In this document: piece by piece, positions 41,467 through 63,604 of the stretch
Position numbering within the stretch: the first letter of the stretch is position 1
Layout of the letters: the number at the start of each line of letters is the position of its first letter
Assembly: GCF_039555335.1 (NCBI RefSeq)
Contig: NC_092635.1
Location: 69,104,058-69,168,057 of the forward strand
DNA from: Amphiura filiformis
Lineage: Eukaryota; Echinodermata; Ophiuroidea; Amphilepidida; Amphiuridae
Reading direction: 5' to 3'
Length of the DNA: 64,000 bases
Position numbers and translations under genes: made by a program
Notes under the pieces: model-generated
The model's input: only the letters and a program-made list of their open reading frames with translations
Databases searched by the model: none
What the model was told of the DNA's origin: nothing

Positions 41467-42883
41467 TTAAAACTCCGTCTCTTTGGACTTCCTCCTGTGG
41501 TTGGCTACGGCAGACGAATCAGCTCGTTTTCTGACGGTGAACTCGATCCCGCCACTGCTACTGTGGTCAGGACTGATATCTGGCGGTCCGTCTTCTATAG
41601 TGCCATCAATCATACTCCCCATCATCTCGAATTCTGTCTGCTCAGCCTGCTGTAGCCTACCGTATCCATCCGACATCTCGCTCAAAGGTGACATCTTGCT
41701 TGTAAACTGATTTAAATCCACATGAAGTGACGTATTGGGACTGAGAGGGATGGCGTCTAATCCTAAATCAAGATTCATATTAGCGTGCTCCATGCTCGGT
41801 AGATACCCGGCACTACCGCTTGTGTTCAACTCATGTACCCAGTTTTTATCTACTAACGAGGTATCGATATGATCCATGATGCTTGTGTACGCAGGGGCAC
41901 TCGCATAGGGCATAGTCTTAGGCATAGGGTTACTGTAAAAACTGGAAGCACTATACGTCGATAAATTGCTTTCCGAGTCTCGAGATGGCATTCCAAGTCC
42001 AAGTAGTCGGCCTATCTGACTCTTATCACTTACTTCTGATGGGGACGGAAACTTGGTACCATTTGCAAACTGATACATGGACGTGCTAGTGGGCAAACCA
42101 ACTTGCCGTTTGATAGGCTTGTGTTCGTCTTTCAACGGAATTGGCGTCATGCCAACCATGGAAGCATATTTCTCAAAAGTACTCACTTTGTGCTTTCTCG
42201 GACTCTTTGGACTTCTTGGACGGCTTCTTGCAGGACTCGTTTGAATACCCGCTTCTTGCTGCATCAGTGTGTCTTTATCTAAATTCAGAGTTTTCCTATC
42301 TAAATTAGCTCCTGCTGATGAATGCTTACTAAGGTTTCCATCGACCATATCGCCATTCTTGGAATCCGGAGTAGCCTGTAATTCCTTAAACCTGAAAACA
42401 GGCTCTTTGCTTTGACTGTTACTAAGTTCAGGTTCTTCTTCCATAACCTGTTTGTACAAGGACGAGTCTGCATCCGCATGACTCTTCACGTCCAAATCTA
42501 AAGGTCTTGCTAATCGCTTAATTTCCTCGGCAGTGGATTCGGAAAATGCTCTGCTCACTTTTGGATGCGGTCTATCACTCGTCTTTGGATGTGCTTCTTC
42601 ACCAGCCTTCCTAGCTTCTGCTTCCGTTCTTTGGTGTTCTTCAAATACATCTTCTGGTAATCGCCTTGACAGAGGGCTTCTTGCCATCATAGATCCATCT
42701 TTACTCTCTGCTGTACTTGTAAGGTTTTCACTAAGTAAATATTGTAAGCCTAAAACCGCTCTGTTGGTCCTGAGACAAAGCTCCTCTAAACGTAACAATC
42801 TCATGTCCATTGATCTCAGAGTCATTTTGGTCAAATTTTCCTTTTCTACAACCTCTTGTATTCGGTAGCAATTTTCTTCAACC
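41467..42883 (-). CDS. TRPM last exon: coiled coil and long tail
   Basis: 1417 nt, entering after ATTCGTAG in phase 2 and ending with TAA at 41467-41469. First about 50 residues are the tetramerising coiled coil ([35 protein letters not shown]). The remaining 420 or so are Ser/Pro/Asp-rich and look disordered, with a basic patch SPKSPRKHK and a final basic run [20 protein letters not shown]. No alpha-kinase motifs. A separate tail, therefore probably regulatory by phosphorylation (inference). Confidence 0.93.
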
Positions 42884-45800
42884 CTACGAATAAATAAAAA
42901 AAAGAAAGCATTATTGTTATAAAGTTCTTGCTTGAAACCTTACATGTTCATGAAGATTATTTAAGCCTCATCCATTAAACCCTCATCACTGTGGTAATCA
43001 CCACCTCATCCTGCTTGGGAGTATCCCCCGGTTTGTACGTTTAGTTAAACACACAAATTTGTCCGTAATTCCAGGTGTCTTTCATTCATCATTTCATTCG
43101 GATGCAAAGCAGGTGACTACAAAGTTTCTCTGTGTACTACGATTTGAAGCCAAAGTGGTAATGGCATCTAGCAGTAAATAGTTGTCAAGTCCCCAACAAT
43201 ATTTTGCACATAAGACAAGTAGGATGTTCATTGCCTTCAAGGTCTTCTTTTACCATGTAATGGGGGTAGAGAGCATATCTTCTGCATGGTTCATCTTCCT
43301 GCATCCTCAGGATATGTCCCAGGGATTCCAGGTGTATATTCTACTACTTTCTTTTCATCTTTCTAGTTTTATCTGATAGTATTAGGAGGGGGTGGGGGCC
43401 TGAAGGGTATTCAAAGTTATTGGGGTGTTGCCTTTCCCGCTCCCCGGATTCCTTTGCTATAAAGCAAAGACTTGCGAGATCCATGTGCATGCACAGATTT
43501 ACGGTTTCTCTACCGGAAGTCAATTTGTGCCAAAATTCCTTCCCACAATGCAATTAGCGTTTTGTATAACAATAGATACAGTTTGGATGTTAATCAATAT
43601 TCTTTGTTATGCAATACACATATTGCATTGTGGAAAGGAATTTTGGCACAAATTGACTTCAGGTAGAGAAACCCTAAATCCATGTATTCTAGCTCATTTT
43701 TTTGCACTGAACCATAGGAAGACAGACTTGATTTCCTATGGTACTTTAGATAATAACTTTCTGCCATAAATGGGATCTGTACTGTGCTCACCTGTCATAC
43801 ATAACCCGTATTCGTTCCTCCGTTGAGGATTCGAACTTCATATTTTTCTTTCTGAAGTAGAGTTCCAGACACCCTTCTTCAAAATCATGCAGCTGTTCAA
43901 CTTCAGTAGGTTGCAAAAATAATTCTGAAACGGAAACAGAATACAAGTCAATTGTTAGTTTTATTGTTCAAGAAACTATGGAATGAATATGCATTTGATT
44001 TAATATATAGAAAGGTTGCAATGACACTTACGACATGTGAAGTATAGTTGTAGTTGTGACAACTGTACCATTTTTCACATGTGACAGTAATGTCATGAGG
44101 CGGCTGTTTTGCTCTATCTATGCAGCGCTTTGAGTGAATGATAGCTATTTTAAGCTGCGCTCAATGAAATGCACACTGACATCACTGCCACATCGAGGTG
44201 AAATAGGGTACAACGGTAGTCTTCACTCTCTACTATCAAAATAATCTGCTATTTATTTCATCTTCAAAAAAATATAAAATGTACAAAACCCAAAGATGAC
44301 AACATGTTATGATGAACATTTGGGAATTCCCATGGCTTTTGGGTTCAAAATCCCAACTAAATGTTATGGGTACCTCGAGAAACACAATAAAGTTTTGCAA
44401 AATCATGTGTGGGAATCCTATAGACCACTTAACATGTGATGTCATTATGCGAGCGAATTATGGCAATTTCCATTGTTCTTTGCCCTGCAGTGTGCGTACG
44501 AATCGTAGTTTGCTCAGGGCACATGTATTTTAAATCGGCCACTACATTTCATATAGTACAAGAAAGCCATTGAACAGTGTAGCGGTTCGTTCAAGCATAT
44601 CGATAGACCAGTCCCTCGCCTTTGTTGATAAACAAGCATTGTATGCTTTATGAGATTGATGAAAAATATTAGATTGATGAAAAATAAAAGATTGATTGAT
44701 TGATTGATAGAACAATGATGTCAAGTGGTCTATATGTTTGCTTGCTGTAAATTTTACATTATCATCATTTTCGAGGGAGGGTGGACAATTTCTGAAACAG
44801 CCTACTATACAGGTGTAATTAGTTCATAGAGGCAACTAGAAATTGGTGCACTACATGAATTCAGAGTTCTCTCTCAAGTCAACATGAAAGTAGTTGAATT
44901 TGACATTCCATCAAACCAAAGTCAATAAACATACTTACTGAGACCACGATCCAGTCTACTTTGTCTACGGAACCTCTTACAGCGACATACTAGAAACTTA
45001 AATAGATAGATGATGTGATGGAAGAGAACTAAGGGAGGTACAAGTAGTGGTTTCTGCTCATAGTTCATCGTCACGTCATAGCGTTGAAACTTCCAGAGTT
45101 GTCTTGCTATTGGGTTCACCAAAGCAAATGTGTTGCTGAAAAAAACAAAGGACATACCTTTTACAATAAATGTTGTTGGTTTAATATGCACTTCAACTGA
45201 TGGTACCAGCACACTTCAACAATTCATTCCACTGCCATTTTGATCATTTAGCTTCGACAAGAACACAAAGCTCCATTCAGCACTTAATTTATACCCTAAC
45301 AGCTCCCTATTGCACTTAGGTGGTGTGAAGCAAGCAAGGTAAAGTACCATGCCCAAGTGCACAACATGCTGACGCTGAAAGGATTCGAACCCACAGCCAC
45401 AAGCTACATCATGATTGTGAGTTGCAGCCTTCAAAACTGCGCCCATGATCTGAATAAATCCAAAACTTTTGAAAGAAGAAAGCTATATCACATATCCTTG
45501 CCATAATCCTTAAAGCCATATTATAACATTTGCTGAGGAAGACGCCCTCACTGAATTTTTAAAATTCCTTTTTTACACGATTAAATTGTACTTAATTAAA
45601 CCAATATACCCTGCAAAAATCGAGACTCTAGGTGCTGTAGTTTTGTCAAAATCCGAGATTTTGAATAAAACGCCGGATTCAGCGCTTTATTATTACGATG
45701 GAATTATTTGTCGAACGCATACACAATGTTCATAACACACAGTACGTACACGGCGTGCAGGACGGTGATATACACAACAAAGGTCGTACCACACCATGAC

Positions 45801-48800
45801 CGGCGTGTAATGCGTATGGGTAGCGATTTTATGTGCGCTGGTAGTAAATTCAATTTTCTTTGCTTTGCCGTAGTTGTTCGGCTCAAAAATAAAGGGATAT
45901 ATCTGACAGTAAAATCTAACATTTTATGGCAAAGAAATGCTAATCTATTTTGTTTGAAAATGTTATAATATGGCTTTAACCTAGCTATTCCAGGCATAAG
46001 AATACATTTCAATGGGAACAAAAGAAAAAGTGTATAACATATGGCAAAAATGTTCAAAATGGGCTAAAAAGAAATAAAAATACAAAAATTGATGGGGGGG
46101 AAAAAGCAATTCCTTTTTTTTAAAAGAGGACAATTCTCATGCCTGCAAACATCAAAATTTAGGACCCATTTCACCAAGCTAAAGATACGTACTACATTAT
46201 TTTGACATATATTTTTGTTCAAACTGAACACCTACTCTATGTGCATAATACATAAGATATTTTTACTTCTTGTTTTCTCTCAGAATCATTTTACAAAGGA
46301 ATGTTTCATGGTACTACTTACTTGAATACCGCAATGAGTAAGCTGACCATAAGGATAATGGAGACAACCAGATAGACTGCCATCGCTGCTGGTACCACCC
46401 AGTGACCTGGTGGGCATGGCTTCTCTGGGTCATTACAGGGAGCTAGCCAAAAAACACACCAACAACCATGTTAATTGAATACATCAATCAATAAACATGC
46501 AAATCATTGAACTCCCAGGTCCATGATTTGTATTCAGAGAAGATATCTTACACTTCCCATAATGCATTTCTCCCATTTTAATTTTCTGTACCGATTTGCT
46601 ACCCAGTGCAACATGAGTCGAAAGTGACAATGAACAGAGCACATCCAGATCTTGTAAAATATGTTTATTTCTCGACTATCAATCCATGTTTACCCAGTAT
46701 ATTCTTAAAATGAAAACCAAAGTAAGCTGTACAAAATAATGGGAGTGTCATTTGATGCAATGAGGTGATGAGTCATGTTGCAAAGGATTCTGGGAAGGGT
46801 AAGATAACTTCTCTGATTTGTATTAGTTGGAAACATAAAATTAGAATCAAACGAATCAACATAAAGATGTCAAGACCCTTGAAAGTGTGTCCAAAGCTCC
46901 TCTGATGTTCAAAATCTAATGTGAAATACACTTTAAAAAAAAATCAAAATCAAAAGTTGTGCTTTAATGTTCTAAAGTTAATTTTTTATTACTTCTGTGG
47001 TCGAGGTATGCGCTGGTGATTAGCAATCGCATAGAAGTGGCAAGGTCTCCCCCTTCTATGCGCAAATGACCAATGGGTCAACCGTCTTATTGTCAAGACC
47101 GTTGATCAGCCAATCGGCGTGATTGTTTGTCGCCTGTGTGTTTGCGCTCGTGTATGGGATACGCACAGCCCAGACCACGGAAGAAATAAAAAACTATCTT
47201 TAATCAATGAAAAGTTGTTTGTTTGAAAATGCTTTGTGTACAAACCAATAGGGCATCCAATGGAGCACACTGCAACTATTGAATTTGCGTCTTAATTGGG
47301 ATTTTGGATCACTGTCTTTATTTCTTGACGGATTTCATCAAATGAAGTTTTAAATCCGAGCTAAAAGAAACAGCTATTGGCTGCTGGTTCTAATAATGAC
47401 ATATGTCTTTGTTAAGAATAAACAGGAGTGAAAACAACTGATACCTTAATTCTTTTGCTGTTTGTTTATTGACTTGTTTATTGACAGTGGAAAAAAGTGT
47501 AACATACATTTAGTGCTGTAAGTAAGCTTGATTAAAACACAATATTAATTAGTAAGTATTGGTGAGAATATCAATTAGTATTGGTGCAAATTCCACAGAA
47601 AAACTGTGAGAGAAATATGCAATGTCAATATTAGTATTTTATCATAATAAACAAAGATTAATCCAAGATGATTAGTTGAATACTTACAACACATTATCAG
47701 CTACACTAAGTGCAGAAATGCATACCAGATGAAAGCCTTACACTTACTTAATATTTCCGGGGCATAAACTTCGCCATAGATCATAAAGTACGGCTTATGG
47801 AATATCTCCCTGAGGGTCACCCACGAAGGTTCCGCATCCGGATGAAGAATCGATTGACGCACAACACCAAAACTCATTATAACTATTACTAATAGCACAA
47901 TGAAGTAGCACATATCTCGCAACTAGAAGTACAAAGATAACAATAATAACAACAGTTATGTACAATGAATAGGCCTGACTTGAACTTACTTAATATTTGG
48001 TGAGCGTACACTTCTCCGTATATCATAAAGTATGGTTCGAGAAATATATCCCTGAGAAGTACCCATGATGGATCTTGGTCTGGATGGAGTATTGATTGAC
48101 GCACGACACCAAAACTCATCATAACAATCACTAATAGCACAATGAAGTAGCACATGTCACGCATCTACAGGAAAAAGACAATACAGAAGAGAATCCGCCA
48201 CCGTATATACGAGAAATATGGAGATAGATACAGGAATTAGTATCATCATGCAACAAAGGGTGTACCAACCGGGTGAGGTGGAAAATACCCCCATGACTTG
48301 AAATACAACAGATCAAACATTTGTGATGATCATTTTTATTTGGCCCAATTTGAAGAGATATACAGTCATTTTGCCAGCAAAACAGATTTCAATTTTGATA
48401 TTTTAAATGGAAACCAAATTGCAGAGCTTTCACACCGAAAAAAAAATATCACAAGTTCCATTCAAGGAAAAAGGATAACACTCAGTGTAAAAAAGAATGG
48501 CCAGTGTATGACAGCAGCCCTATACTAAATGCATGACGGAACAACAGCACAAATGCCATTTATTAGAGGATATTATAGTTTCCTTACATAATGTAAGGAA
48601 TCAAATATCAAGTTGTTCTTGCATTTTGGGTGTTGAGATTAACCCTCACCATGACGGTGTCAACTGCAGACGATAAGTTTCATAACTTTACAAAATTCAG
48701 AATTGTAAATTTTCATGACCAAATTTGGAATTGGCATGAAAAATACATTAAAATGAGTACAAACAAGCCCAGTATTGGTTCAGTGATTCTTGAGATAGCT

Positions 48801-51800
48801 CTTGATATTTTGAGAAAACATCTCAAAACTTTTTAGCTTGAAGCCTATGGCTAGCATGCAGCGCATTATAAAATGATTTTCAATGTGTATTTTATGTTTA
48901 ATATATTACTTCCTTTTGCTATATCTTTGGTCAACTTTTCTCGCATGATAAAAGGATGTAACTTGCAATTAAGGCCTTTTGCACTTGATTATTAGTTTCC
49001 TGTTTACCGCCCGCGTCCAAAATTGAAACTCTCAACTCAAAATAATTAATTATTTTATTTTTATTTCTAATTTTCTCCTTTAAAATAACTTCCACCTTCA
49101 CTTATTTATAAAATCAAATATTGTTGTGAAATAATTAAATGCCTGCTCTAGTCAAAACGAGTCAATAGTTGCTTGTAATAGTTCAAACTAAATAAAGAAA
49201 ATAAAAGATAATTATAATTAATAATTAAAAGTCACCTCGTCCTTTTTCAAAATCTTTAACAGGAAACTAATAATCAAGTGCGAAGGGCCTAAGAGGCAGA
49301 TATTTTCTTCTGCCAAAATAAGTGCTAGACAATTTCAATATATATTTCTTTAATGTTACAACACCTTTTCCAAATGAGTCAAATAGAAAAATTAACTTCA
49401 ACCATAGCAAAAGGAAGCAAAATGTTAGTGGAGTAAATAGAAGAGATACACTTTTACCATATAATTTATGCTCAATGATCCCAAATATTACACAGGTAAC
49501 ATCATATTGGTAAAGGAATGTAAATGGGCAACATATTTATTTCCTGAAAATCTATCTGGTCCTTGGACAGGGGGTTGAGGGCTTGCGTGCTGTATTGAAC
49601 ATTAGGGGGGTTTGGCGGGTAATAGGCAGGGTGTCACCCCCTCGTAAAAAAAAATGTCGCTCTTTTTATGACAAATTATCTTCATCCAAAAATTCCGGAA
49701 ATGCTCGATTATTTTTTCATTTCTATTAGTGGTGGGTTAAAGAATGATGATGCTTCAAATTTCTTAGGGAACCAGCTTATTTGATGCAGTATGATCTCCT
49801 GAGCATTTTGACACCTTTTTCATCCAAATCGGCCAAAAACTGAGAAGGTGCCGGCCAAAACAAATATTCGGACAGGGGGGTCTGTTGGGGGTCTGAAAAT
49901 CAATATTTTCATCAACAATCATTATTATATGCCTGATTCTGTTAAAGTTGGTATTGATTTGTATGTAATTGATGTTTAGAATTCCATTTTTGAAAGTTGC
50001 ATAAAAATTGGAGTTGTCGTTTTCTTAATATGGCCATTTTATGTCCAAATAAGGATATGAGGGCGCTTCGCATTTAACTTGCAAACGATCTTTGAAACAG
50101 AAATGTCAATGGTGTATGTATGAAGATAATCATAGGTAGTACCTGCTCAAGAAATTTGAGCGATTTACATTGTACGGTTTGATTTTGGCAGCCATTTGAA
50201 TATTTCATAGAACGCTGCCATTCAACTGTACAGGGGTCAATGCACTTTAATATGTGTACGTTTCAATGGAAGGCTTCCTGAGAATACAAAAAATGGTGCC
50301 ACGGTCAAATGAAAAGAAATATAATGCCCAAATTTCTTAAGGATGTGCCACATGTGATTATCTTCATACTGACATCATTAAATTTTCATGTGAAAAGAAC
50401 GTGTGCATGTTTTATGCAAAGCGCCCTCACATCCTTATTTGGACGTAAATCGCCATTTTAAGAAAACGACAACCCAATTTTTATGCAACTTTCAAAAATA
50501 GAATTCTAGACATCTATTACCTGCAAACCAACACCAACTTTAACAGAATTAGGCAAACAATAATGATTATTGATGAAAATATTGATTTTCAGACCTCCAA
50601 CAGACCCCCCCGTCCAAATACTTGTTTTGGTCGGCACCTTCTCATTTTTCGGCCGATTTTGATGAAAAAGGTGTCAAATTGTTCAGGAGATCATGCCGCA
50701 TCAAATAAGCTGGTTCCCTAATAATTTGAAACATCACCCTTTTTAAAAGGCTGTTTAACCTACCCCTATTTCTATTTTTTTTTTGGCCAAATTTCCGGAA
50801 GATTTACATCCTGATGGTACTAAAAAACCCCAACAACAATGCACACTTACCATTTTGCCGATCATATTTACAAATGGTCCAAGGTAGATGTTGACACTGA
50901 GCAAGTCTAATAATTTGAGGTACCACATTACTATATCTACACAGTAGATCACTCGTCCAGCAGAGTGTGTCGACGGAATAAAACGTAGAACCAATCCCAC
51001 CATGAAAAAGGTGATACTTAGTATATCGTGAAGGTTCCAATAACCTGCATAGAAGACTCGTATTCTCTGGCCTAGAAATGGCGGCTCAGAGACTAGTAAC
51101 TGTGGATGAAAATAGACAGGAAAAATTTTTTTTTTAAGGAATCTGTCAAAGACTAGGTCTTTTGGGGGAAAATATTTATTTTCAATACGAAAGGTCAAAA
51201 TTTTCAAATGATGGATGGCTTTTCCTCACAGCTACATACACTTTAAGTACATATCATTAGATTTATAAAGTTAACTTTGAGGGCTGTTAAATGTCAAAAA
51301 CATAAATTTTTAATAAGTTTGCTATATAATAAACTTAACCATCACAGCATTCCCGGTGATTATTGGAAGTAATACAAATATAGGACACTGCAAAATTGCA
51401 TTTTGCCGTTGGATGGATGAATCTGATGTGATGTGATGACACAATCACCTAGAGTCATATATACCCACAGCTTTGTTGACCTGGCCAGCAAATAGCTACT
51501 GGTGGGCGACCTAATGGGCTATTCCAGATGTATTCTGCACCCCACCCCTATGGAAGACACTTCTGGAATTTGGGGCTAAATTGACAGCCGGAATTCACAT
51601 GTCAGGAAAACCCCATGGAAGACCCTGCCGGAATTGTGGTAATATGGCCAGCCGAAATTCAAGTAAATGTAAATGTCTTCCATAGGGTTCCAGCTGGAAT
51701 TAGAACATTTTTTCAGGTTCCAGCCAGAATTCAAGTAAATTGTAAATGTCATTCATAGGTTAATCCAGATGGCGACCATAAGTGAAGATCCTGCCGGAAT

Positions 51801-54800
51801 TGGAGCATTTTTGACCATTTTCAAGCCGAAATATTAAGAAATATGAATGTCTTCCATAGGCACATCATGGCCTTTCACAATCCCCACTCTTGTTTTTTTG
51901 TTAATTTTAGCAGTAAGGAATTTCACCTAATCTCAATGTCTTCCATACCCTCCAGCCGGAATCTGTGTTAAAAATGACTGCTGGAATTCTAGACACATCT
52001 CAATTCCAGCTGGAATTGTATTTTTTTTAAATGTCTTCCATGGGGGGGGGGGGGGAATACATCTGGAATAGCACATATGTGTGTCAAGCGAGGGATCTTG
52101 GATTTGAATCACACCCCAAACAAACAACTTCTTTGTTCATTTCTCTCTTTATTCATTCCTTCTTTCCCTTCCATTCGCCAAAGTGCACCTCGAGTTAGGG
52201 TTAAATGAAAATTTTGAATAATTTTACAATGAACTGGATGTAAGCTGAAGTTTACATCCAATACCAGTTTTAAGCTTACTCACATGATATGGCATGGAAA
52301 ATAAGCATATCTGTCACTTTTCCATGGAAAAAATTAGAGGGGGAAGGGGCATTTATTCCAGCATGGCATGCAGCCTATCCAAAGTCATGGCCCACCTTTC
52401 TCTAAATGATCTCTTAACAATTAAAGTATGTTCTACCAAAAGTTGGCAACATGACATTTACCCCATTTGTGTATGATCCAAGCATTTTAATGTAGGACAT
52501 TTAACACCCAATACTGAACAGACTACAATTCGATAAGAAATGAGAGGGACAGGAACACTCGGTACAAATATGCCATCCAACAATGGTCAAAGGTCGGAGG
52601 TCACAGAGGTGACAGGTGAGTGGCATGTACTACTTACCTGACGTATATGTTCTACACCTAGAGTTACTATATATGCAATGACAATCCATTCTTCTATGTT
52701 CGGCATAGGATCCATACGAACCAGTACAACATAGTTATACAGTGCTAGAAATACAACAAATGCCATCTGTTATGAAAGAAGCACAAAATATTATAAAAAA
52801 TTATAGTCATTTGCATAATATTTGCATTTTCATTCTTCTATGGATGGCATAGCTTCCATACGAACCATTACAATGTAATTAATTATACAGTGGAAGAAAA
52901 ACAACAAAATGCATCAGCATTAATGACCCTATGTTTTAATAGCAAATAATATTTTTTTGCTTATTCTGTTTGTATTTACTCATCTGGAAGTACAGACAGA
53001 ACTTAATACATTGTATGTACAATGACTCTTTCACACACATACAGTGACCCTGTACAGGACCTGCAAACAGGGTCTGATTTCTGCGCCTAAACGGGTACGT
53101 TGACCCCATTTTGCAAAAATTATACACTTTTGGGGGGATTTTAACCAATCAACCGGAGACTGATTTTTATATCAACAATAGGGGACGCACTCTCAAATGC
53201 ATTTTTAGGCTCTTTGCAGTCAATTGCACATCTTAGCTAAACAGGGATGGCCAGCGGTTGTAGCAACGTCCACGGCTGGAATGTAAAGTTCCATATAAAC
53301 GTCCATGTTTGCCGACAAACACATACGCATGGCTACTCACAGAGTGCATCCAAAACTTTGTAATAGGCGCCGTGTAGAATTCATAAAGCTTCTTTCCAAT
53401 CCTGAGTTGTTTTCTTTGTGTAGTAGTCTGTTGAGTAGATGAAGGAGACTGTAAACCATCTAGACTGATTACCACACCGTCATGCTTCAACATGCCATCA
53501 GACACTGATGGTGGACCCTATCAAACAAATCAATACAATTGGTTAGCATATTGTTATTCATTAGTTGACAACTGATCAAGCTACTGCCTAGAAAATGGAT
53601 ACACATCACACCACCAGCTCGAGATCACAACAAAAATTTTCCACATACAGTACTTCATAATAAATGTTTGTCATACAGGTATGTTGTAACTGCTGATACC
53701 AAGTTACAATTTTTTGTTTACATTTTGAGGGCGTGCAGAGCGTAAACACTGATAATCTGAGTGGCCGATTACGCATCCAAACGTTGGTCGAAGTACACGC
53801 AAAGCTCCGCGTATGTCGCTCATTAACAGGGCGCTCGCGTCAATCTGAGCAAGGGTGTGCCATTCTTCCCTGAAACTCAGTGTAGATGTGTACAACTAGG
53901 ATTAATGTACCTCTGGACAAGCCTAGTGCTATGCGAATGTGTTGTGCCGATAACATACACTATGCGTTACCCATGAAAACTTTTGAAACGCTCATGCTTG
54001 AAGATTCAAATCATCATTAGATATCAGAATTTGGCTGATAAATGCGGCAAGTTTACTATTTAAGTCCCCATGCACGAAAAACCAATATGGTGCCGAGTTG
54101 GTACTCTCTGGGTCTAATCTCTTTGGCACAACTGTGACAGTTATATTATTTTTATTTATTTATTTATTTAAACTTTCTTTACCCAGGGTAGCTCCTTCAA
54201 TTTCAAACACTGATTTCCAAGGAGGCCCTGCATTTACATTGTGAACAAGAAGCATAATATTTATATACAGTAATAAATCAGAAAATACATTATAAATGGC
54301 ACATGAAATTGAAAACAATTGAGAAAACATGAAAATTCAGATTAAAAGACATATTACACTGGTTTTATCAAAAACAACTGCTTAAATTGAGTAATACTCA
54401 TTGACTTAAAATTACATCTACTATCATTTGGAAGGCTATTCCACAATTTAGTAGCTCGTGAATGAAATGTTCTTTTACCTGCATTAATATTATATGGTGG
54501 TTCAAAAAGAGCAAAAGTGGTTTGAGTCCTGGTTCCTTTAGAGTGCATATCATGCATAAAAGTGAACTGAGAGGAAAGGTAACCAGGAGCCATTCCTGTC
54601 AAGCATTTGAAGGTAAGTGTTGCCATATAGTTGAACCACCTATCATTTAATTTATTCCAATGAAGAGTACTCATCATGTCATCAATTGGTGTTCTGATAT
54701 CAGCGGAAAGAATAATACGACCAAGCCTATTGTGAAGAATTTGGAGGGAGTTGGAGAGCTCAACAGAACAGTTAGACCAAACAGTATTACAATAATCAAA

Positions 54801-57800
54801 ATTAGGCATAATTGCATTGTCAAGCATGATGAGGGTATCTTTTGGAATATAAGGTTTGACACGCTTAATTATACACCACATCGCTTAGAAATACAGGAAG
54901 ACATTGCATTAATATGATCAGACCAAGCCATGGTAGGATCAAATGTAACACCAAGGTACTTAAATACATCAACACGCTCAATAGTATCATTATTGTAATA
55001 TAAACTAACATCTGTAAAGTTTTTTAACACCCTGCTAGTGCCGAACACCATGAATTTAGTTTTCTGAATGTTTAATGTAAGATTATTATTCTTGAACCAG
55101 TCAACAATTTTGGATAAATTACATTGAAGCTTTGATTGAAGAGTAGAAGAGTCATTAGCAGTACATAGTAATGTGGTGTCATCGGCATACATAGAACATT
55201 TACAATCAACACTATTAGAAAGACTATTAACAAATATTATAAAAAGAAGCGGGCCTAAAATAGAGCCTTGAGGAATGCCAATATTAATGTTTTTAAAATC
55301 AGATAATGTGGCATTAATGTTAACAGCTTGAGCTCTATTACCAAGATAAGATTCAAACCACTCAAGTGTTGTACCTTTTATACCATAGTTGCTAAGTTTT
55401 TCAATTAAAAGAGAATGGTTAACACAATCAAAAGCCTTTTTGAGATCAAGAAATATTGCACCGGTGGCTTGTCCATTATCCATGTTTTTTTAAATGAAAT
55501 CTTGAACATCATTCAGGGTAGTTGCTGTTGAGTGATTGCTACGGAAACCAGATTGGTTCTCTGACAGAATACCCATAGAAGTTAAATAAGAATATAATTG
55601 ATTATGAACAGCTCTTTCAATAATTTTGGAAATGAGAGGCAGGACAGAAATAGGCCTGTAATTTCCAACATCCAATTTATCACCTGCCTTAAAAATTGGG
55701 GTGACTTTAGCCAACTTCCAGTCTGTTGGATAAACAGATGTATTTAAAGAAAGATTACAAATATATGCTATAGAATGACAAATGTATGGTGCAGCTAGCT
55801 TCAACAACTTGACACTAAAATCATCCATACCAGGTGACTTATTGTTTGGAATATCGCAAATATGTTTATATACGAACTCTGGGGTAATATAACTAAACTT
55901 AAAAGTACTAGTACATGTATTAAAACTGTTGCTATTAATATTTACATCATCAAAATCTTTAGCAAGTGTAGCCCCTATTGAGGTAAAATAATCATTGAAT
56001 ACATTGGCAGTTTCTTTAAAAGATGTCAACCCGCTATCAGTATCACTCTTCACAGTTGTGATTGTTGAAGAAGATTTTGAAGGCAATAATTTCTTAATTG
56101 AAGACCAGAGCTTTTTAGAGTTACCTACATTACTTGTGATAGAATCAGTATAAAATTTCTTTTTAAGAGTGTAACATAAGTTATTTGCTTTATTGCGATA
56201 CATTTTGCCATTTGCCAATCATGCGAATCATTTGTCTTATGAGCCTTACCATAATAGAAATCGCGATCTTTGCAAACAGATAGAAATTCACTGGTGATCC
56301 ATTCAGGTTGAGAACCTTTTATATGCTTCTCTCTGATAGGTGCATGGATATTACAGGCATCATTAAACATTGATTTCCATGTGTCTAAGGCTATATTTAC
56401 ATCATTAATACTTTGTACACAGTTCCAATTAGTCTTACTGATTGTATTCACAAACTCTTGCTCATTAAAATTCCTATATGTGACTCCTCGTCACAACTGA
56501 GCCCGGAAGTCGCCAATCATCATTTTTGAGATATTCAACCAAAATATTCTGCTTTAAATTAGCTTTAAAATGATGTATATCATGTCTATAGTACTTGACA
56601 TTTAAGTAGTGAAAAATAAATAAAACAGTCAATAAATCCTTTGTTTCCTATTGTTTATTGTTAAGTTCGATGGAGCATATCTCAATAGTGGCACTGGCGA
56701 CATCCGGCTCAGTTGTGGCGAGGAGTCACATATGATCTGGTTTTAGTAACCTTAGGAGTAGACTTAATTTGTTTCATCTTTCGAACAACATAAATAAGAT
56801 TGTGGTCACTAAGTCCCAGACTATGAACACCAGATGCAATAATTGTTTCTGGTCTTGTTACAAAAGCAAGATCAATAGTTGTTTTACTCTTCTCTGTAAT
56901 ACGAGTGTAATCCTTAATTAGTTGAGTAAATTGGGAGTGATTTGCTAATTTAGTAACTTTACTAGATTCAGTACCAGGCTTAGATACATCAAGATTAAAA
57001 TCACCTAAGACAATTACATTATCATACATAGAAACACAATTTTGAAACATAGCATCAATCTTATCAGTGTATTCAGCTTTAGCATCTGGAACACGATAAA
57101 CAGTACCAACTAAGATGGGTTTGCTGTGAGGAAGACATATTTCAACCCAAAGTGCTTCAACATCATTGATAAGAAGATTGCTTTTTTCAACAAAGGTTAA
57201 CTTATCCTTAATGTAAATTACATTTCCCACATGGTTTTCATTTTTCCTGTCTATTCTACACAAATTATAACCATCAATTTCAATTTCAGAATTATCAATA
57301 CCACTTGTAAGCCAAGTTTCATTGAGTGACAACAAATCAATATTGTTATCATGAAGAAGAATGTCAATATACTCAACTTTGTTTTTTAAACTCTGAACAT
57401 TAAGGTGAGCCATTTTTAGCCCTTTGCCAAGAGCACATTTGAGATCAATAAAAGGCTCTTTACTATAAGGAAGTTCATTCCAACAAGTCCTATAGAAACA
57501 TGATTGACACCAATATGGGCCATTGTTATTCGCACTGGGACTAGGATATAGCAAGCACCGTAGAATGCAAGAACTCTTTCTCTTTATTAACTGATGAACT
57601 TGAATGTGAAAATGACAAAAATGATGATTTATGTATACATGTATGTATTGATAATATGTTTGGAAGTAATAAGGAGGTAAAACAAGTGAAAAAACGTCGT
57701 CATCGAAGGGGGGGGGGTAAGAAAGGTACATGTAGTACTAAAGTTAATAATAACATTGTTAAAATTGGTTTTAATAACGTTAATAGACTTCATCCAAAAA

Positions 57801-60800: not shown

Positions 60801-63604
60801 GACGCTCCATATATGGAGACATATCTTTTAGATGCAACTGACTTTCATGGCGCCTCGTTGAAATTCAAAATTCGCTCTAACACTCTCCCGTTAGACAGTC
60901 AAATTTGTAAATGGACACCAGACAATGATGGTATTTGTAAATTATGTAATATTGATCGCGAGGATGTGAAACACTTCCTTTTCACATGTCACTCACTTAA
61001 CACAATCAGGGCTGATGAATACAGTAAACTTGAGAAAGAGCTAATTAATTTAAATGGTATCGATAGTTGGGAATTATTGATCTCTGGTAACTTAGGCGTA
61101 AAGTATAATATGACCCTTGGAAGTGTAAAATTGTTTGATAATATAAGTAAGGCAGAAGATTTCTATCACACATTTGATAAATTCTGCAAATCCTTCGTAA
61201 AAAGAGCATGGAAGGCAAGATCCGAATTGAGTTTGAACGCTACTGATATTTAATGTATTTATTTATATGTGATGAATTCTGCGTTGCTAGCTAAACTGTA
61301 TAATTGAATATTTTATATTTTGTTTTATTTTCATGCTTACAACCATTTCAAGTCAACTTGGGTTGAGACAGGCAATTTCTTTAACTTTTGTTATTATATA
61401 TCTTATCATTTTTCATGTATATTCAATTGTGTTTAAAATTCGTTTTTATATGTATATTGTTTTTGAATGCACCGCTGGTTAGGCGTGTGCCACTGATATA
61501 AAAGTGTATGTTCCAATAAATAAATAAATAAATATTACTAGGCGGTTACCTGTATTTGGCGGTTCTCGGCTGTCGCGATTACCTGGCTGATGGTGACTTT
61601 ACCCACCAAGTTTTATGCCCATAGGACAGTTTTTACTAATTTGACCTCAGATGACCCCTTGTGATCTCAAACTGACCTTCCAAAATTTGGCCCTAAATGT
61701 TGACTGTACCCACCACGTTTCATGCCCACGACAGTTTTTAGTAATTTGACCTTGGATGACCCCAAAATTATCGTCAAAAATTTGACTCTAAAAGTTGACT
61801 GTACCCACCAAGTTTCAATGCCATACGACATTTGTTACTATTTTGACCTCAGATGACCCCTGGGTGACCTAGGATGACCCCAAAATGACCGTCCAAAATT
61901 TGACTCTAAAAGTTGACTGTACCCACCAAGTTTCATGCCCATACGACAGTTTTACTAATTTGACCTCAGATGACCCCTGGATGACCTTGGCCCTCTTACC
62001 GAAACAAACTTGTTCTGTCTGAGGTCCAGATGCACCCACCCACCAAGTTTGAGGAACGTGCGACCCCTAGTCTCCGAGAAAATAGGCGGAAAACAGTTGT
62101 TACTAATTTGACCTCAGATGACCCCTGGGTGACCTTGACCCACTAACCAATACAAACTTGTTCCGTCTTAGGTCAAGATGCATCTACCCACCAAGTTGCA
62201 TGCCCATATGACAGTTTACTAATTTGACCCCTAGATGACCTCTGGTGACCTTGACCCACTAACCAATACAAACTCGTTCTGTCCCGGGTCAAGAGCGCAC
62301 CCACCCGTCAAGTTTGAGGGCGTCGACCCCAGTGTCCAAGAAAAACAGTTTTACTAATTTGACCCCTGGATGACCTCGGGTGACCTTGACCCACTAACCA
62401 ATACAAACTTGATCTGTATGGGGGCAACATGCACCCACCCACCAAGTTTGAGGAGCGTATGACCCCTAGTCTCCGAGAAAATAGGCGGACAGACACACAG
62501 ATAGACAGACAGATAAACAGACAGATAGACGATGCGTATTATTATATAGATAATCAGTGACACATTTATTATGAAACATCAATGAACATTGAATGCATGA
62601 AATGGTTTGATGAGATGGGATTATCTTACAAGTACACTCAGCACAAATTGTATTGTTATCACTTGCGACTTTACAATGAGATGGTTGATGGGATGAAAGG
62701 ATGGTATTGTTAGTTGTGTCACTGTAATTGTTTACACTATTATTGCACATATTATTATTTTCACTACATATTGGAGAAACATAATTATTAAACGCATTTG
62801 AATTACAATTACTTGGCATTTGCAGTGATGCCAACGCCGCGCCTTAGGCCAACAATTGGGCTACTTGGCGATCACTTGCCGCTACTCAAAAAAGCATGCC
62901 GCTACTTGTCTAAAATTGGGCTACTTTTGCCAGTCTCAGGCCGCGTCACTAATTTAGTGTATTTTCCTTTCAATTTAGCCAATTTATGAAGGTTTTGAGT
63001 CTTTGAAGCTCCAAATTGAAATTACAATGGGTTTTGTGACCATTTATTGATCGGTCAGTAGCTTCCCAGTAAGTACCGGAAGTTTCAAAGTCAAGTTCTT
63101 TTCCGCCCAATTGGGTGTTTTGCGTTGCAAATTAAGGTAAACCCTTAAAAGCTTAAAAAATTGGGCTACTTGAGATTCCTTTACCGCGGCCTGGCGAGTC
63201 AATGCGCCGCGCCTTGACGCTGAAAAGTTTTGGCAACACTGGGCATTTGCAAATAAATTGCACAATCAGGATTTGAAGAAGTATCAACATTGAAAACACT
63301 CTTAACATCTACATTTAAATTAGTTCCTTTGTTATAAAGGTTCATGTCCATAGGTTTTATCACACTGTCATTGATCTTATTTGTAGAAACTCATCTACAG
63401 TCTTATACTTACCGTGTCAGCATCATCATCATCTTCAAACTGATTGAAGCCTGATAGACTTTGTTTATCGCTGATGCTATCACTGTCGCCTTCTTGCAGA
63501 TCAGCAATGTGTTCTTCTAAAGTCTGAGGCATCAGTTGTAGCTCCTCTCTGGTCTTAAAGGTCAATAATGCTATAGCTGGAGGACACAATAGCCCTGCAA
63601 TTAC
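41467..63604 (-). CDS. TRPM (melastatin) cation channel, S1 to C-terminus, nine-exon path
   Basis: Exons 63604-63413, 53517-53341, 52766-52638, 51099-50851, one of 48164-47990 or 47922-47748, 46442-46322, 45135-44939, 43924-43792 and 42883-41467 join in phase to 929 residues and a stop. The order matches TRPM1/3/6/7 channels: pre-S1 linker ([20 protein letters not shown]), S1-S6, filter [11 protein letters not shown], pore-loop cysteines, S6 running into AVFNNTF, TRP box [21 protein letters not shown] and a coiled coil. The family forms plasma-membrane tetramers carrying cations, often including calcium and magnesium. The N-terminal TRPM homology regions are off the right edge. The C-terminus has no alpha-kinase, so it resembles TRPM1/3 more than TRPM6/7. 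Tandem alternative pore exons are the striking feature. Identity is secure; the subtype is inferred. Confidence 0.95.
43478..43685. repeat. 208-bp palindromic foldback
   Basis: GGTTTCTCTACCGGAAGTC and AATTTGTGCCAAAATTCCTT at the left pair with AAGGAATTTTGGCACAAATT and AGGTAGAGAAACC at the right. Sits within 110 bp of the TRPM exon at 43792. Explains overlapping ORFs on both strands. Confidence 0.85.
43792..43924 (-). CDS. TRPM exon: post-TRP helices
   Basis: 133 nt, phase 1 to 2, between CCGTTTCAG and GACAG|GTGAGC. Encodes [19 protein letters not shown] and [20 protein letters not shown], matching the HDFEEQCIEEYFREKDD-type segment preceding the coiled coil. Confidence 0.92.
44000..44930. 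other. TRPM intron, no exon recognised
   Basis: No supported feature beyond a short ATTGA-rich microsatellite-like run at 44640-44705 (GATTGATGAAAAAT units). Confidence 0.4.
44939..45135 (-). CDS. TRPM exon: S6 end and TRP domain
   Basis: 197 nt, phase 2 to 1, between TTTTTTTCAG and GTCTCA|GTAAGT. Completes NNTF at the S6 gate, then [19 protein letters not shown] with the TRP box WKFQRY, followed by [15 protein letters not shown] and a basic stretch [11 protein letters not shown]. Confidence 0.94.
45235..45455 (-). repeat. tRNA-derived SINE
   Basis: Minus strand shows GGGCGCAGTTTTGAAGGCTG with an A-box-like stretch, then GTGGGTTCGAATCC, a good Pol III B box, about 45 bp later, followed by a non-tRNA body (GTGTTCTTGTCGAAGCTAAA). 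Stem pairing is incomplete, so a retroposon rather than a working tRNA. It lies about 100 bp upstream of the TRPM exon 45135-44939. Confidence 0.5.
45511..45979. repeat. TTAAAGCCATATT foldback element
   Basis: Ends TTAAAGCCATATTATAACAT and ATGTTATAATATGGCTTTAA are near-perfect inverses, 469 bp apart, with a GC- and CpG-richer core. A partial relative occurs at 23270-23490. Confidence 0.8.
46322..46442 (-). CDS. TRPM exon: pore loop and S6
   Basis: 121 nt, phase 1 to 2, between TTGGCTAG and TTCAA|GTAAGT. Encodes [18 protein letters not shown] with the two pore-loop cysteines, then S6 [20 protein letters not shown]. The loop is much shorter than the human TRPM3 or TRPM7 equivalent. Accepts either 5a or 5b. 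Confidence 0.93.
46530..46818. repeat. inverted-repeat element in TRPM intron
   Basis: CAGAGAAGATATCTTACAC and TTCCCATAATGC at the left pair with TTCTGGGAA and GGTAAGATAACTTCTCTG at the right, about 288 bp. Confidence 0.65.
46983..47198. repeat. inverted-repeat element in TRPM intron
   Basis: TTTTTTATTACTTCTGTGGTC and GTATGCGCTG at the left pair with GACCACGGAAGAAATAAAAAA at the right; an inner GCATAGAAG / CTTCTATGC pair is also present. Confidence 0.65.
47200..47740. other. intron following pore exon 5b
   Basis: AT-rich, no exon or repeat structure that I can support. Confidence 0.4.
47748..47922 (-). CDS. TRPM alternative pore exon 5b
   Basis: 175 nt, phase 0 to 1, between TACTTCTAG and ATTAA|GTAAGT. 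Same architecture as 5a: S5 [20 protein letters not shown], turret HPDAEPSW, pore helix REIFHKPYF, filter [12 protein letters not shown]. First codon is TTG instead of ATG. Ten of 58 residues differ from 5a while many synonymous sites also differ, showing that the duplicate has been kept under protein-level selection (inference). Confidence 0.93.
47990..48164 (-). CDS. TRPM alternative pore exon 5a
   Basis: 175 nt, phase 0 to 1, between TTCCTGTAG and ATTAA|GTAAGT. Encodes S5 ([20 protein letters not shown]), the turret HPDQDPSW, pore helix RDIFLEPYF and filter [12 protein letters not shown]. Versus 5b it has Gln-Asp in the turret, Leu-Glu just before the pore helix core and His-Gln just after the filter. 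Separated from 5b by a 67-bp intron. Choice between the two must be exclusive to keep frame. Confidence 0.93.
48720..48890. repeat. dispersed repeat
   Basis: Related to 31540-31710 (GCCCAGTATTGGTTCAG, GATATTTTGAGAAAA, TAGCATGCAGCGCATT). Confidence 0.5.
48966..49292. repeat. inverted-repeat MITE
   Basis: GGCCTTTTGCACTTGATTAT and TAGTTTCCTGTT at the left pair with AACAGGAAACTA and ATAATCAAGTGCGAAGGGCC at the right, about 320 bp, with TTA-like flanks. Confidence 0.8.
49737..50752. repeat. 1-kb foldback element beside TRPM S3-S4 exon
   Basis: Two arms of roughly 350-400 bp are inverted copies around 50240. Matching pairs include GGGAACCAGCTTATTTGATG / CATCAAATAAGCTGGTTCCC-type ends, AGGTGCCGGCCAAAACAA / TTGTTTTGGTCGGCACCT and CAAATAAGGATATGAGGGCG / CGCCCTCACATCCTTATTTG. 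It ends about 100 bp from the donor of the exon 51099-50851. No coding capacity. Confidence 0.85.
50851..51099 (-). CDS. TRPM exon: S2-S3 linker, S3, S4
   Basis: 249 nt, phase 0 to 0, between CATCCACAG and AAAATG|GTAAGT. Encodes [20 protein letters not shown]3 ([16 protein letters not shown]), S4 ([20 protein letters not shown]) and the S4-S5 start [12 protein letters not shown]. The open frame continues upstream into intron sequence containing a degraded foldback, which is not exon. Confidence 0.93.
51139..51330. repeat. degraded partial copy of 664-bp foldback
   Basis: Matches the right half of 10766-11429: TAGGTCTTTTGGG, AATACGAAAGGTCAAAATTT, CTACATACACTTTAAG and ATATCATTAGATTTATA. Lies within 45 bp of the TRPM S3-S4 exon acceptor (51099). 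Confidence 0.75.
51512..52076. repeat. GGGCTATTCCAGATGTATTC element
   Basis: Ends GGGCTATTCCAGATGTATTC and GAATACATCTGGAATAGC are inverses. Between them several AATTCAAGTAAATGT and GTCTTCCATAGG units repeat every 60-90 bp. Termini suggest it is related to, or parasitic on, the GAATAGCCC palindromic family. Confidence 0.75.
52080..52630. other. TRPM intron, no exon recognised
   Basis: AT-rich intron without recognisable features. Confidence 0.4.
52638..52766 (-). CDS. TRPM exon: S1-S2
   Basis: 129 nt, phase 0 to 0, between CATAACAG and CGTCAG|GTAAGT. Encodes [18 protein letters not shown] (S1), a short loop DPMPNIE and [18 protein letters not shown] (S2). Not long enough to show up as an ATG-bounded open frame. 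Confidence 0.92.
53341..53517 (-). CDS. TRPM exon: linker to start of S1
   Basis: 177 nt, phase 0 to 0, between TTTGATAG and CACTCT|GTGAGT. Encodes a variable Ser/Thr/Gln-rich loop and then [19 protein letters not shown], the conserved pre-S1 helix (KxYEFYxAPIxKFW in vertebrate members). Confidence 0.93.
53520..54140. other. TRPM intron, no exon recognised
   Basis: Contains a somewhat CpG-richer stretch near 53730-53850; the open frame on the minus strand (53704-53895) has no TRPM similarity and lacks a fitting acceptor. Confidence 0.4.
54146..54172 (-). repeat. LINE 3' tail, (TAAA)n
   Basis: Six or so TAAA units in LINE orientation mark the 3' end. The plus-strand flank ACAGTTATATTA resembles ACAGTCTTATA beside the 5' end (63399-63409), a possible imperfect target duplication. 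Confidence 0.6.
54354..56450 (-). pseudogene. CR1-like LINE reverse transcriptase (broken)
   Basis: Motifs in order: [57 protein letters not shown] (first catalytic Asp), [21 protein letters not shown] (catalytic YADD) and KYLGVTFD, then a C-terminal region with [10 protein letters not shown]. Disabled by a frameshift near 56215, an in-frame TAA at 55490-55492 and a frameshift near 54875. All catalytic residues visible are still present. Confidence 0.88.
56479..56730. mobile_element. TA-flanked 252-bp MITE inside the LINE
   Basis: Ends TGTGACTCCTCGTCACAACT and, inverted, TGTGACTCCTCGCCACAACT; TA on both sides (56477-56478, 56731-56732). The inserted 254 bp shift the LINE frame; without the element and one TA the endonuclease-RT linker reads through. 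Tc1/mariner-type target inferred. Confidence 0.9.
56735..57530 (-). pseudogene. CR1-like LINE apurinic endonuclease domain
   Basis: Encodes the last Cys pair of the finger (PYWCQSC), then [31 protein letters not shown] and [10 protein letters not shown], which are the N, E, D-x-N and SDH active-site motifs of LINE endonucleases. The N-terminal 70 residues of the open frame beyond 57530 are antisense of the other LINE and not part of it. The frame is cut by the TA-flanked MITE at 56730. Confidence 0.85.
57656..59533 (+). pseudogene. second LINE, endonuclease and RT N-terminus
   Basis: Endonuclease motifs: [39 protein letters not shown] and [10 protein letters not shown]. An in-frame TAG at 58745-58747 interrupts the frame, which then resumes and runs to [16 protein letters not shown] and [16 protein letters not shown] of the RT. 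A one-base deletion near 59530 ends it. The reading frame is also open upstream of the ATG to about 57535. Confidence 0.85.
59534..60651 (+). pseudogene. second LINE, RT catalytic core
   Basis: Continues [35 protein letters not shown] (first Asp), [17 protein letters not shown] and [11 protein letters not shown] (catalytic FWADD), then [10 protein letters not shown] further frame change occurs around 60648-60651. Confidence 0.88.
60648..61253 (+). pseudogene. second LINE, C-terminal region with Cys/His knuckle
   Basis: Encodes [20 protein letters not shown] then [10 protein letters not shown], a C-x2-C-x7-8-H-x4-C knuckle typical of the C-termini of several LINE clades. Ends with TAA at 61251-61253. 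Confidence 0.8.
61541..62556 (+). repeat. RTE-type 3' end with 7-8 imperfect tandem units
   Basis: Units of about 110-130 bp repeat TTTGACCTCAGATGACCCC, GTGACCTTGACCCACTAACC and CACCCACCAAGTTTGAGG. The block ends with GACAGA/GATAGA units and GATGCGTATTATTATATAG, a 3' end known from RTE-like retroposons of marine invertebrates. It lies between the second LINE and the N-terminal piece of the first LINE; whether it arrived with the second LINE or separately is unresolved. Confidence 0.65.
62486..62530. repeat. GACAGA/GATAGA microsatellite
   Basis: CAGACAGATAGACAG-type units forming the tail of the RTE-like block. Open frames rich in Leu-Ser-Val-Cys on the minus strand arise from it. Confidence 0.75.
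62565..63351 (-). pseudogene. LINE ORF, N-terminal part with Cys/His finger
   Basis: Starts [13 protein letters not shown] at 63351, is interrupted by a hAT MITE (62823-63241), and continues through an Asn-rich stretch to [24 protein letters not shown]. This is the first part of a C4HC3 (PHD-like) finger as found in CR1-type LINE proteins. The final Cys pair (YWCQSC) lies across the 5-kb insertion at about 57510. Confidence 0.7.
62823..63241. mobile_element. hAT MITE with 8-bp target duplication
   Basis: 419 bp; ends CAGTGATGCCAA and the inverse TTGGCAACACTG (CAGTGTTGCCAA). The 8-bp target GGCATTTG is present on both sides (62815-62822 and 63242-63249). Taking the element and one target copy away leaves the LINE frame open across the site. 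Internal repeats of GGGCTACTTG. No transposase. Confidence 0.92.
63413..63604 (-). CDS. TRPM exon: pre-S1 cytosolic linker
   Basis: 192 nt, phase 0 to 0, between TTCTCTTGTAG and ACACG|GTAAGT. Encodes [14 protein letters not shown], then [18 protein letters not shown], ending in a Ser/Asp-rich stretch ([11 protein letters not shown]). Matches the PPTI-type segment at the end of the TRPM N-terminal region. A LINE begins within about 60 bp downstream of its donor. Confidence 0.92.

Follow-up and report, generated by a model that had tools for sequence, protein, structure and literature searches.

Tandem S5–pore exons, most likely used as mutually exclusive splice alternatives, in a TRPM gene of a brittle star

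In the LCav3 T-type calcium channel, alternative S5–P turret exons reportedly shift sodium versus calcium permeation; unlike the TRPM exon pair considered here, LCav3 is said to be voltage-gated, with the turret lying in one of four repeats. NALCN exons 15a/15b and 31a/31b are, according to the accessible part of the report on them, tandem mutually exclusive exons that replace a cation-channel pore, much as the TRPM pair would, and that change selectivity-filter residues (PMC3557258). The exon 15 pairs are described there in echinoderms and hemichordates, among others. NALCN nevertheless belongs to another channel family, its filter residue itself changes from E to K whereas both TRPM exons keep the filter glutamate, and its exon 15 begins at the pore helices and reaches the near end of S6, whereas the TRPM copies change S5, the turret, the pore helix, and the residues after the filter (PMC3557258). 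TRPM3 alpha1 and alpha2 come from the same channel clade as the brittle-star gene, and splicing between them alters the outer pore and strongly affects divalent permeability; these variants differ from our case in that they involve 12 inserted residues, or a stretch of comparably short length, rather than a duplicated exon, as far as the available text describes them (PMC7959729). Database sequences of TRPM1/3 likewise contained a short variable stretch (for example LYAMEIN) right after the equivalent of the exon-A end.

Elsewhere among TRP genes, the accessible texts report mutually exclusive exons in Bactrocera TRPL (PMC6137742), mutual exclusion between exons with initial codons in Pieris TRPM (PMC7143563), and alternative exons A1–A6 in Drosophila trpm (PMC2865541). 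The term 'mutually exclusive' did not occur in the available part of a six-insect TRP survey (PMC2753570) or in the main text, as available, of a 2026 paper on TRPM evolution (PMC13143021), and term counts of TRPM, splic-, exon, and intron were zero in the main text of the Amphiura genome paper (PMC11310086). No TRPM pore-exon pair was described in the titles and abstract beginnings among the literature matches listed, a set to which the subscription literature contributed little. The original prediction had taken the arrangement to be different and probably undescribed. For TRPM this agrees with the literature found, whereas the published NALCN pore exons follow the same principle in a channel family of another kind (PMC3557258), and TRPM models from three Lepidoptera contain a duplicated filter–S6 segment.

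The window, by which we mean the whole 64,000-nt stretch of Amphiura filiformis DNA that was analysed, carries on its minus strand a TRPM channel gene from which the N-terminal part is missing: the C-terminal half is present, and the rest of the N-terminus, to which the melastatin homology region would belong, falls outside. Upstream of the pore pair, all on the minus strand, are exon a (63413..63604), encoding a cytoplasmic segment preceding S1; exon b (53341..53517), encoding pre-S1 sequence and the beginning of S1; exon c (52638..52766), encoding S1–S2; and exon d (50851..51099), which encodes S3–S4 and the S4–S5 linker and ends in phase 0 at ATG/gtaagt (exon/intron). Downstream of the pair, on the same strand, are exon f (46322..46442; post-filter loop and S6), exon g (44939..45135; the end of S6 and the TRP-helix region), exon h (43792..43924; a linker preceding the coiled coil), and exon i (41467..42883), which encodes the TRPM tetramerisation coiled coil, the C-terminal tail, and the stop codon. 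When 512 residues of the joined product were compared with Pfam, they matched the families Ion_trans (E 3.1e-15 for the A form and 2.4e-16 for the B form) and TRPM_tetra (E 1.8e-11, in exon i), and the best PDB matches of exons A and B were to TRPM1, then TRPM3, and then TRPM7 (best E 9.2e-20 for A and 8.3e-19 for B).

The model containing exon A was 98% identical to an Amphiura database protein annotated as 'TRPM3-like isoform X2' (P0123, 1664 residues), with 916 of 932 positions identical. Because this alignment ran from end to end and its sole gap, of 3 residues, fell inside exon i, the last exon, the predicted exon joins agree with P0123. The precomputed domains of P0123 include PF18139, PF18171, and PF25508, which we take to be TRPM N-terminal domains. 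P0123 was recovered in a second homologue search (best 120 of 468 matches) and was most likely missed in the first (best 120 of 887) since it is longer than 1.75 times the query. Next nearest by identity, among the best 120 of 887 matches, were the sea stars Patiria (68%) and Asterias (65%), followed by Holothuria (58%) and by Diadema, Lytechinus, and Anneissia (each 57%); a spider protein, P0005, ranked third by score in that set, with a score that counts two pore copies. By identity among the matches listed, the closest relatives are echinoderm TRPM1/3-like proteins with a GEVYA-type filter. Judged from these comparisons, the gene is a channel of the TRPM1/3/6/7 type, a clade named TRPM-alpha in the accessible part of a recent study (PMC13143021).

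Between exons d and f lie two adjacent, homologous minus-strand exons. Exon A (47990..48164) encodes S5, the turret, the pore helix, and the filter MIYGEVYA followed by HQ, and exon B (47748..47922) is an alternative copy with AE in the turret, HK at the pore-helix entry, and PE after the filter. They are separated by a 67-nt intron (47923..47989, minus strand; GTAAGT...CTTCTAG). Both exons are 175 nt long, with equal phases (exon A starts in phase 0 and leaves one base over at its end) and the same donor, ATTAA/GTAAGT, and by eye exon B also has a canonical acceptor. Their likeness is beyond chance, as the repeat match has 78% identity over 198 nt, and they are the only copies in the window, where tblastn with A found B and vice versa, and no further match had an E value below 0.5. 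The 58-residue translations differ at 10 positions: 1 and 15 in S5; 30, 31, 36, 39, 42, and 43 in the turret and pore helix, as placed by comparison with TRPM channels; and 55 and 56 directly after the filter. The remaining 48 residues, including the filter core MIYGEVYA, are invariant. When the exons were joined in silico, A alone or B alone gave a frame that stayed open to the stop codon (929 residues each), whereas inclusion of both or of neither caused a frameshift and stops. The two exons thus have the properties of a tandem alternative pair in adjacency, homology, length, phase, and splice sites, and in the in silico loss of the product when both or neither are used.

On rechecking, the coordinates, 175-nt lengths, phases, and shared donors that had first drawn attention to this pair were exact. 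The translations and the TRPM matches bore out its description as a duplicated S5–turret–pore helix–filter exon, and the assignment to TRPM was confirmed by the matches of both A and B to PDB chains of TRPM1, TRPM3, and TRPM7. The earlier count of 10 differing residues in 58 stands, with the six sites singled out at that time corresponding to positions 30/31, 42/43, and 55/56, as does the frame logic by which only one of the two exons can be included.

The nucleotide differences between A and B (38 of 175) were distributed 5/4/29 over codon positions 1/2/3 (chi-square p 1.4e-7), and the codons comprised 21 with synonymous change, 10 with replacements, and 27 that were identical. Estimates of dN and dS were 0.097 and 2.01 by NG86 and 0.107 and 3.33 by maximum likelihood, with dS saturated (2 or more) by both methods. 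Neutral simulations run to 38 differences produced a mean of 25 replacements and a minimum of 17, and in none of 20000 did a stop-free copy have as few as 10 replacements; under a milder simulation with 19 changes, 448 of 20000 gave this outcome. Similarity between the copies stopped ~12 nt beyond the exon edges. Compared to the A–B intron, the 67 nt upstream of A had 44 identities (200 shuffles: mean 41.08, maximum 47), and the corresponding figure for the 67 nt downstream of B was 46 identities, without a shuffle control. Since the A–B intron resembles the intron that precedes A no more than shuffles do, and since the exon differences are coding-constrained, the pair looks like an old duplication under coding constraint rather than a haplotype artefact. 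Near-copies in tandem can also be produced by assembly, when two haplotypes are set end to end or a contig is mis-joined, and the spider model P0005, with two apparently identical copies, may illustrate this. For A and B such an origin was already disfavoured and is extremely improbable, as they differ at 38 of 175 nucleotides, whereas the protein encoded in the window differs from the database protein at just 16 of 932 aligned positions, the 3-residue gap included.

In a tree of the 58-residue segment built from A, B, and 17 sequences chosen from 213 fetched homologues, A and B were sisters (support 85/84), with branch lengths of 0 for A and 0.25 for B, so that all replacements fell on the B branch. 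Topologies that grouped A or B with two sea stars were not rejected (p-AU 0.098 and 0.201), and the grouping at 85/84 is compatible with duplication before or after the sea-star split. Exon B, used as a 63-residue query, matched Patiria only (1 match of 3 candidates), a result that is uninformative on B elsewhere. Exon A is identical in P0123 (58 of 58 residues), and exon B is absent from it; P0123, the one Amphiura model seen, represents a 3-member cluster at 90% identity, in which isoforms are hidden by the clustering.

The placement of all change on the B branch fits a lesser role for B. Taken with the presence of A in the one Amphiura model and with the 448 matches under the milder neutral simulation, it speaks for a gene in which A is the working exon, B is rarely used or fading, and A+B transcripts are only noise removed by nonsense-mediated decay. 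We regard this as unlikely, because B contains no stop and has a canonical acceptor and GTAAGT donor, and because 48 of 58 residues, with an invariant filter core, have been kept while synonymous change became saturated. By the same measures (synonymous change in 21 codons and replacement in 10, dN of 0.10 against dS of ~2, canonical splice sites), B is not simply decaying. The early stops predicted for A+B and for double skipping would also suit a poison switch, in which regulated inclusion of both exons or skipping frameshifts the transcript and shuts channel production, with dosage at stake as much as pore choice; a poison exon does not need a complete, functional-looking pore, however, and the constraint between the copies acts at the protein level, which makes this account very improbable. 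The pair is real, old, and constrained, and exclusive splicing into two outer pores is the most likely reading of the sequence data.

We are fairly confident of a model with two channel forms, A-only and B-only, chosen by splicing, in which position 56 is the probable main functional switch. In this gene of the TRPM1/3/6/7 type, the S5–pore exon is duplicated in tandem, splicing would pick A or B, and the frame logic would, as in the in silico joins, eliminate double-exon and zero-exon products. The 67-nt A–B intron may be too short to splice, blocking A-to-B joining; a branch-point scan of this intron found one yTnAy match, with its A 24 nt from the donor, and by eye there is an ACATAAC whose A lies 34 nt from the donor. 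Steric exclusion by a short intron operates in alpha-tropomyosin-type exon pairs, and such exclusion by the A–B intron is plausible. RNA structure across the pair was not unusual (z 0.73; 74 of 100 shuffles folded equally well). Either exon is expected to yield a full TRPM subunit with the common filter core and a distinct turret, pore-helix entry, and outer vestibule.

Alignment on the GEV motif with TRPM7, whose chains read HPYWMIFGEVYAYEIDVCAN, placed position 51 of the exon at E1047 and position 56, five residues past the filter glutamate, at E1052. The filter glutamate (the E1047 equivalent) is kept in both A and B. Position 56 is Gln in A, as in the aligned TRPM1 and TRPM3 PDB chains, and Glu in B, as in TRPM7. 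In a table of TRPM7 mutants given by a review, mouse E1052Q is entered with lowered Mg/Ca binding and smaller Mg/Ca currents, and mouse E1047Q and human E1047A with loss of Mg/Ca permeability (PMC4197629); the available part of a second review names the Mg/Ca selectivity filter as E1047 and E1052 in mouse and as E1052 and D1054 in human TRPM7 (PMC10576435). As the Q/E difference at position 56 equals an exchange at TRPM7 E1052, the natural A/B swap includes an E1052Q-type exchange, and A/B splicing probably tunes divalent permeation. Compared to the A form, the B form would be expected to have stronger Ca2+ and Mg2+ binding and passage, block by these ions, and relief by protons, with mixed A/B tetramers behaving in graded fashion.

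Position 56 varies in other animals: sea stars and urchins carry Lys there, Holothuria and Anneissia carry Glu, and Antedon carries Asp, and among the fish sequences it is Ser in many TRPM1 entries and Glu in two TRPM3 entries. Because it is labile among these echinoderm and fish sequences, it may be weakly constrained. The position of human TRPM7 D1054 is Leu in both A and B, and nine residues besides position 56 also differ between the exons. If both forms are used, the turret and pore-helix residues (30, 31, 36, 39, 42, and 43), which make up six of the ten differences, could instead alter gating, ligand sensitivity, or assembly, and not mainly divalent permeation. The variability of position 56 among species favours such an effect, as do the TRPM3 pore-loop variants, which in the accessible text differ not just in permeation but also in how sensitive they are to pregnenolone sulfate (PMC7959729). 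Against it, the only A/B difference for which mutant data were found in a relative, TRPM7 1052 E/Q, acts on Mg/Ca in the sources available, and we consider an effect mainly on gating, ligands, or assembly possible but rather unlikely.

Two crinoid orthologues, from Anneissia (P0017) and Antedon (P0021), have identical 58-residue exon segments except at positions 35, 55, and 56 (Y/A, and PE vs SD). These positions sit close to the sites that differ between A and B, and crinoids might have alternative pore exons too.

Two filter motifs were present in 8 of 213 homologues: five models from Colias and one each from Helicoverpa, Spodoptera, and Parasteatoda. In the Lepidoptera models (P0009–P0014 and P0016), the copies read GEVFAEQM and GEVFAPDI and extend from the pore helix through S6. 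Like A and B, they duplicate pore coding and differ just after the filter (EQ vs PD, compared to HQ vs PE here); unlike A and B, the duplicated unit begins in the pore helix and covers S6, and the predicted models hold both copies in frame. A predicted Diaphorina protein, P0008, repeats the post-filter-to-S6 segment after a stretch of unrelated sequence. In a tree of 11 single-pore proteins and 8 insect copies (4 species), the lepidopteran and Diaphorina extra copies may or may not form one family, with support of 78/49 and long branches. These two-copy models suggest that a different pore exon was duplicated separately in the insects concerned; the Lepidoptera duplication is likely of independent origin, and together with A/B it suggests that the post-filter region of TRPM was diversified by exon duplication more than once. 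An insect-wide pore-exon pair was unsupported, as among the beetle isoforms listed (Tenebrio, Harmonia, and two species of Diorhabda) the pore was the same within each species. The Parasteatoda model, P0005, with its two apparently identical copies, was left out of account as probably an artefact of gene modelling or assembly.

Were both exons in use, a single gene would supply TRPM channels with two outer pores and everything else in common. Nature would thereby offer a clean test of how the residues of the turret and the outer ring govern Ca2+/Mg2+ permeation and the sensitivity to protons, in an animal that makes its calcium carbonate skeleton out of sea water. Pore-exon swapping would then extend from four-repeat channels such as NALCN to the tetrameric TRP family, a setting in which mixed A/B tetramers become possible. 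A broader reading, which we offer as tentative and somewhat doubtful, is that brittle-star splicing switches the outer-filter ring made by a single TRPM gene between the Gln of TRPM1/3 and the Glu of TRPM7, as a counterpart in nature of E1052Q; one gene would thereby do the job of the separate TRPM3 and TRPM7 of vertebrates, and insects would have reached pore swapping independently through a different duplicated pore exon.

Searches over the 64 kb of the window with Rfam gave nothing at the gathering score, and ARAGORN found no tRNA. The intron directly upstream of exon A contains a large inverted repeat (49758-50727) with 254-nt arms that are 90% complementary and with nested inverted repeats, which may be a mobile element of the foldback type. 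The intron that separates exons a and b holds the frames of two retroelements in opposite orientation (54354-57737 on the minus strand and 57545-61253 on the plus strand); one frame of each was scanned, and both had matches to domains of reverse transcriptase or endonuclease. The region 17315-17934 is made up of tandem repeats (194 and 39 nt) that are open in several frames on both strands. In a neighbouring gene, an open frame on the plus strand (22601-22963) matches BLOC-1 subunit 2 (Pfam BLOC1_2, E 6.7e-33).
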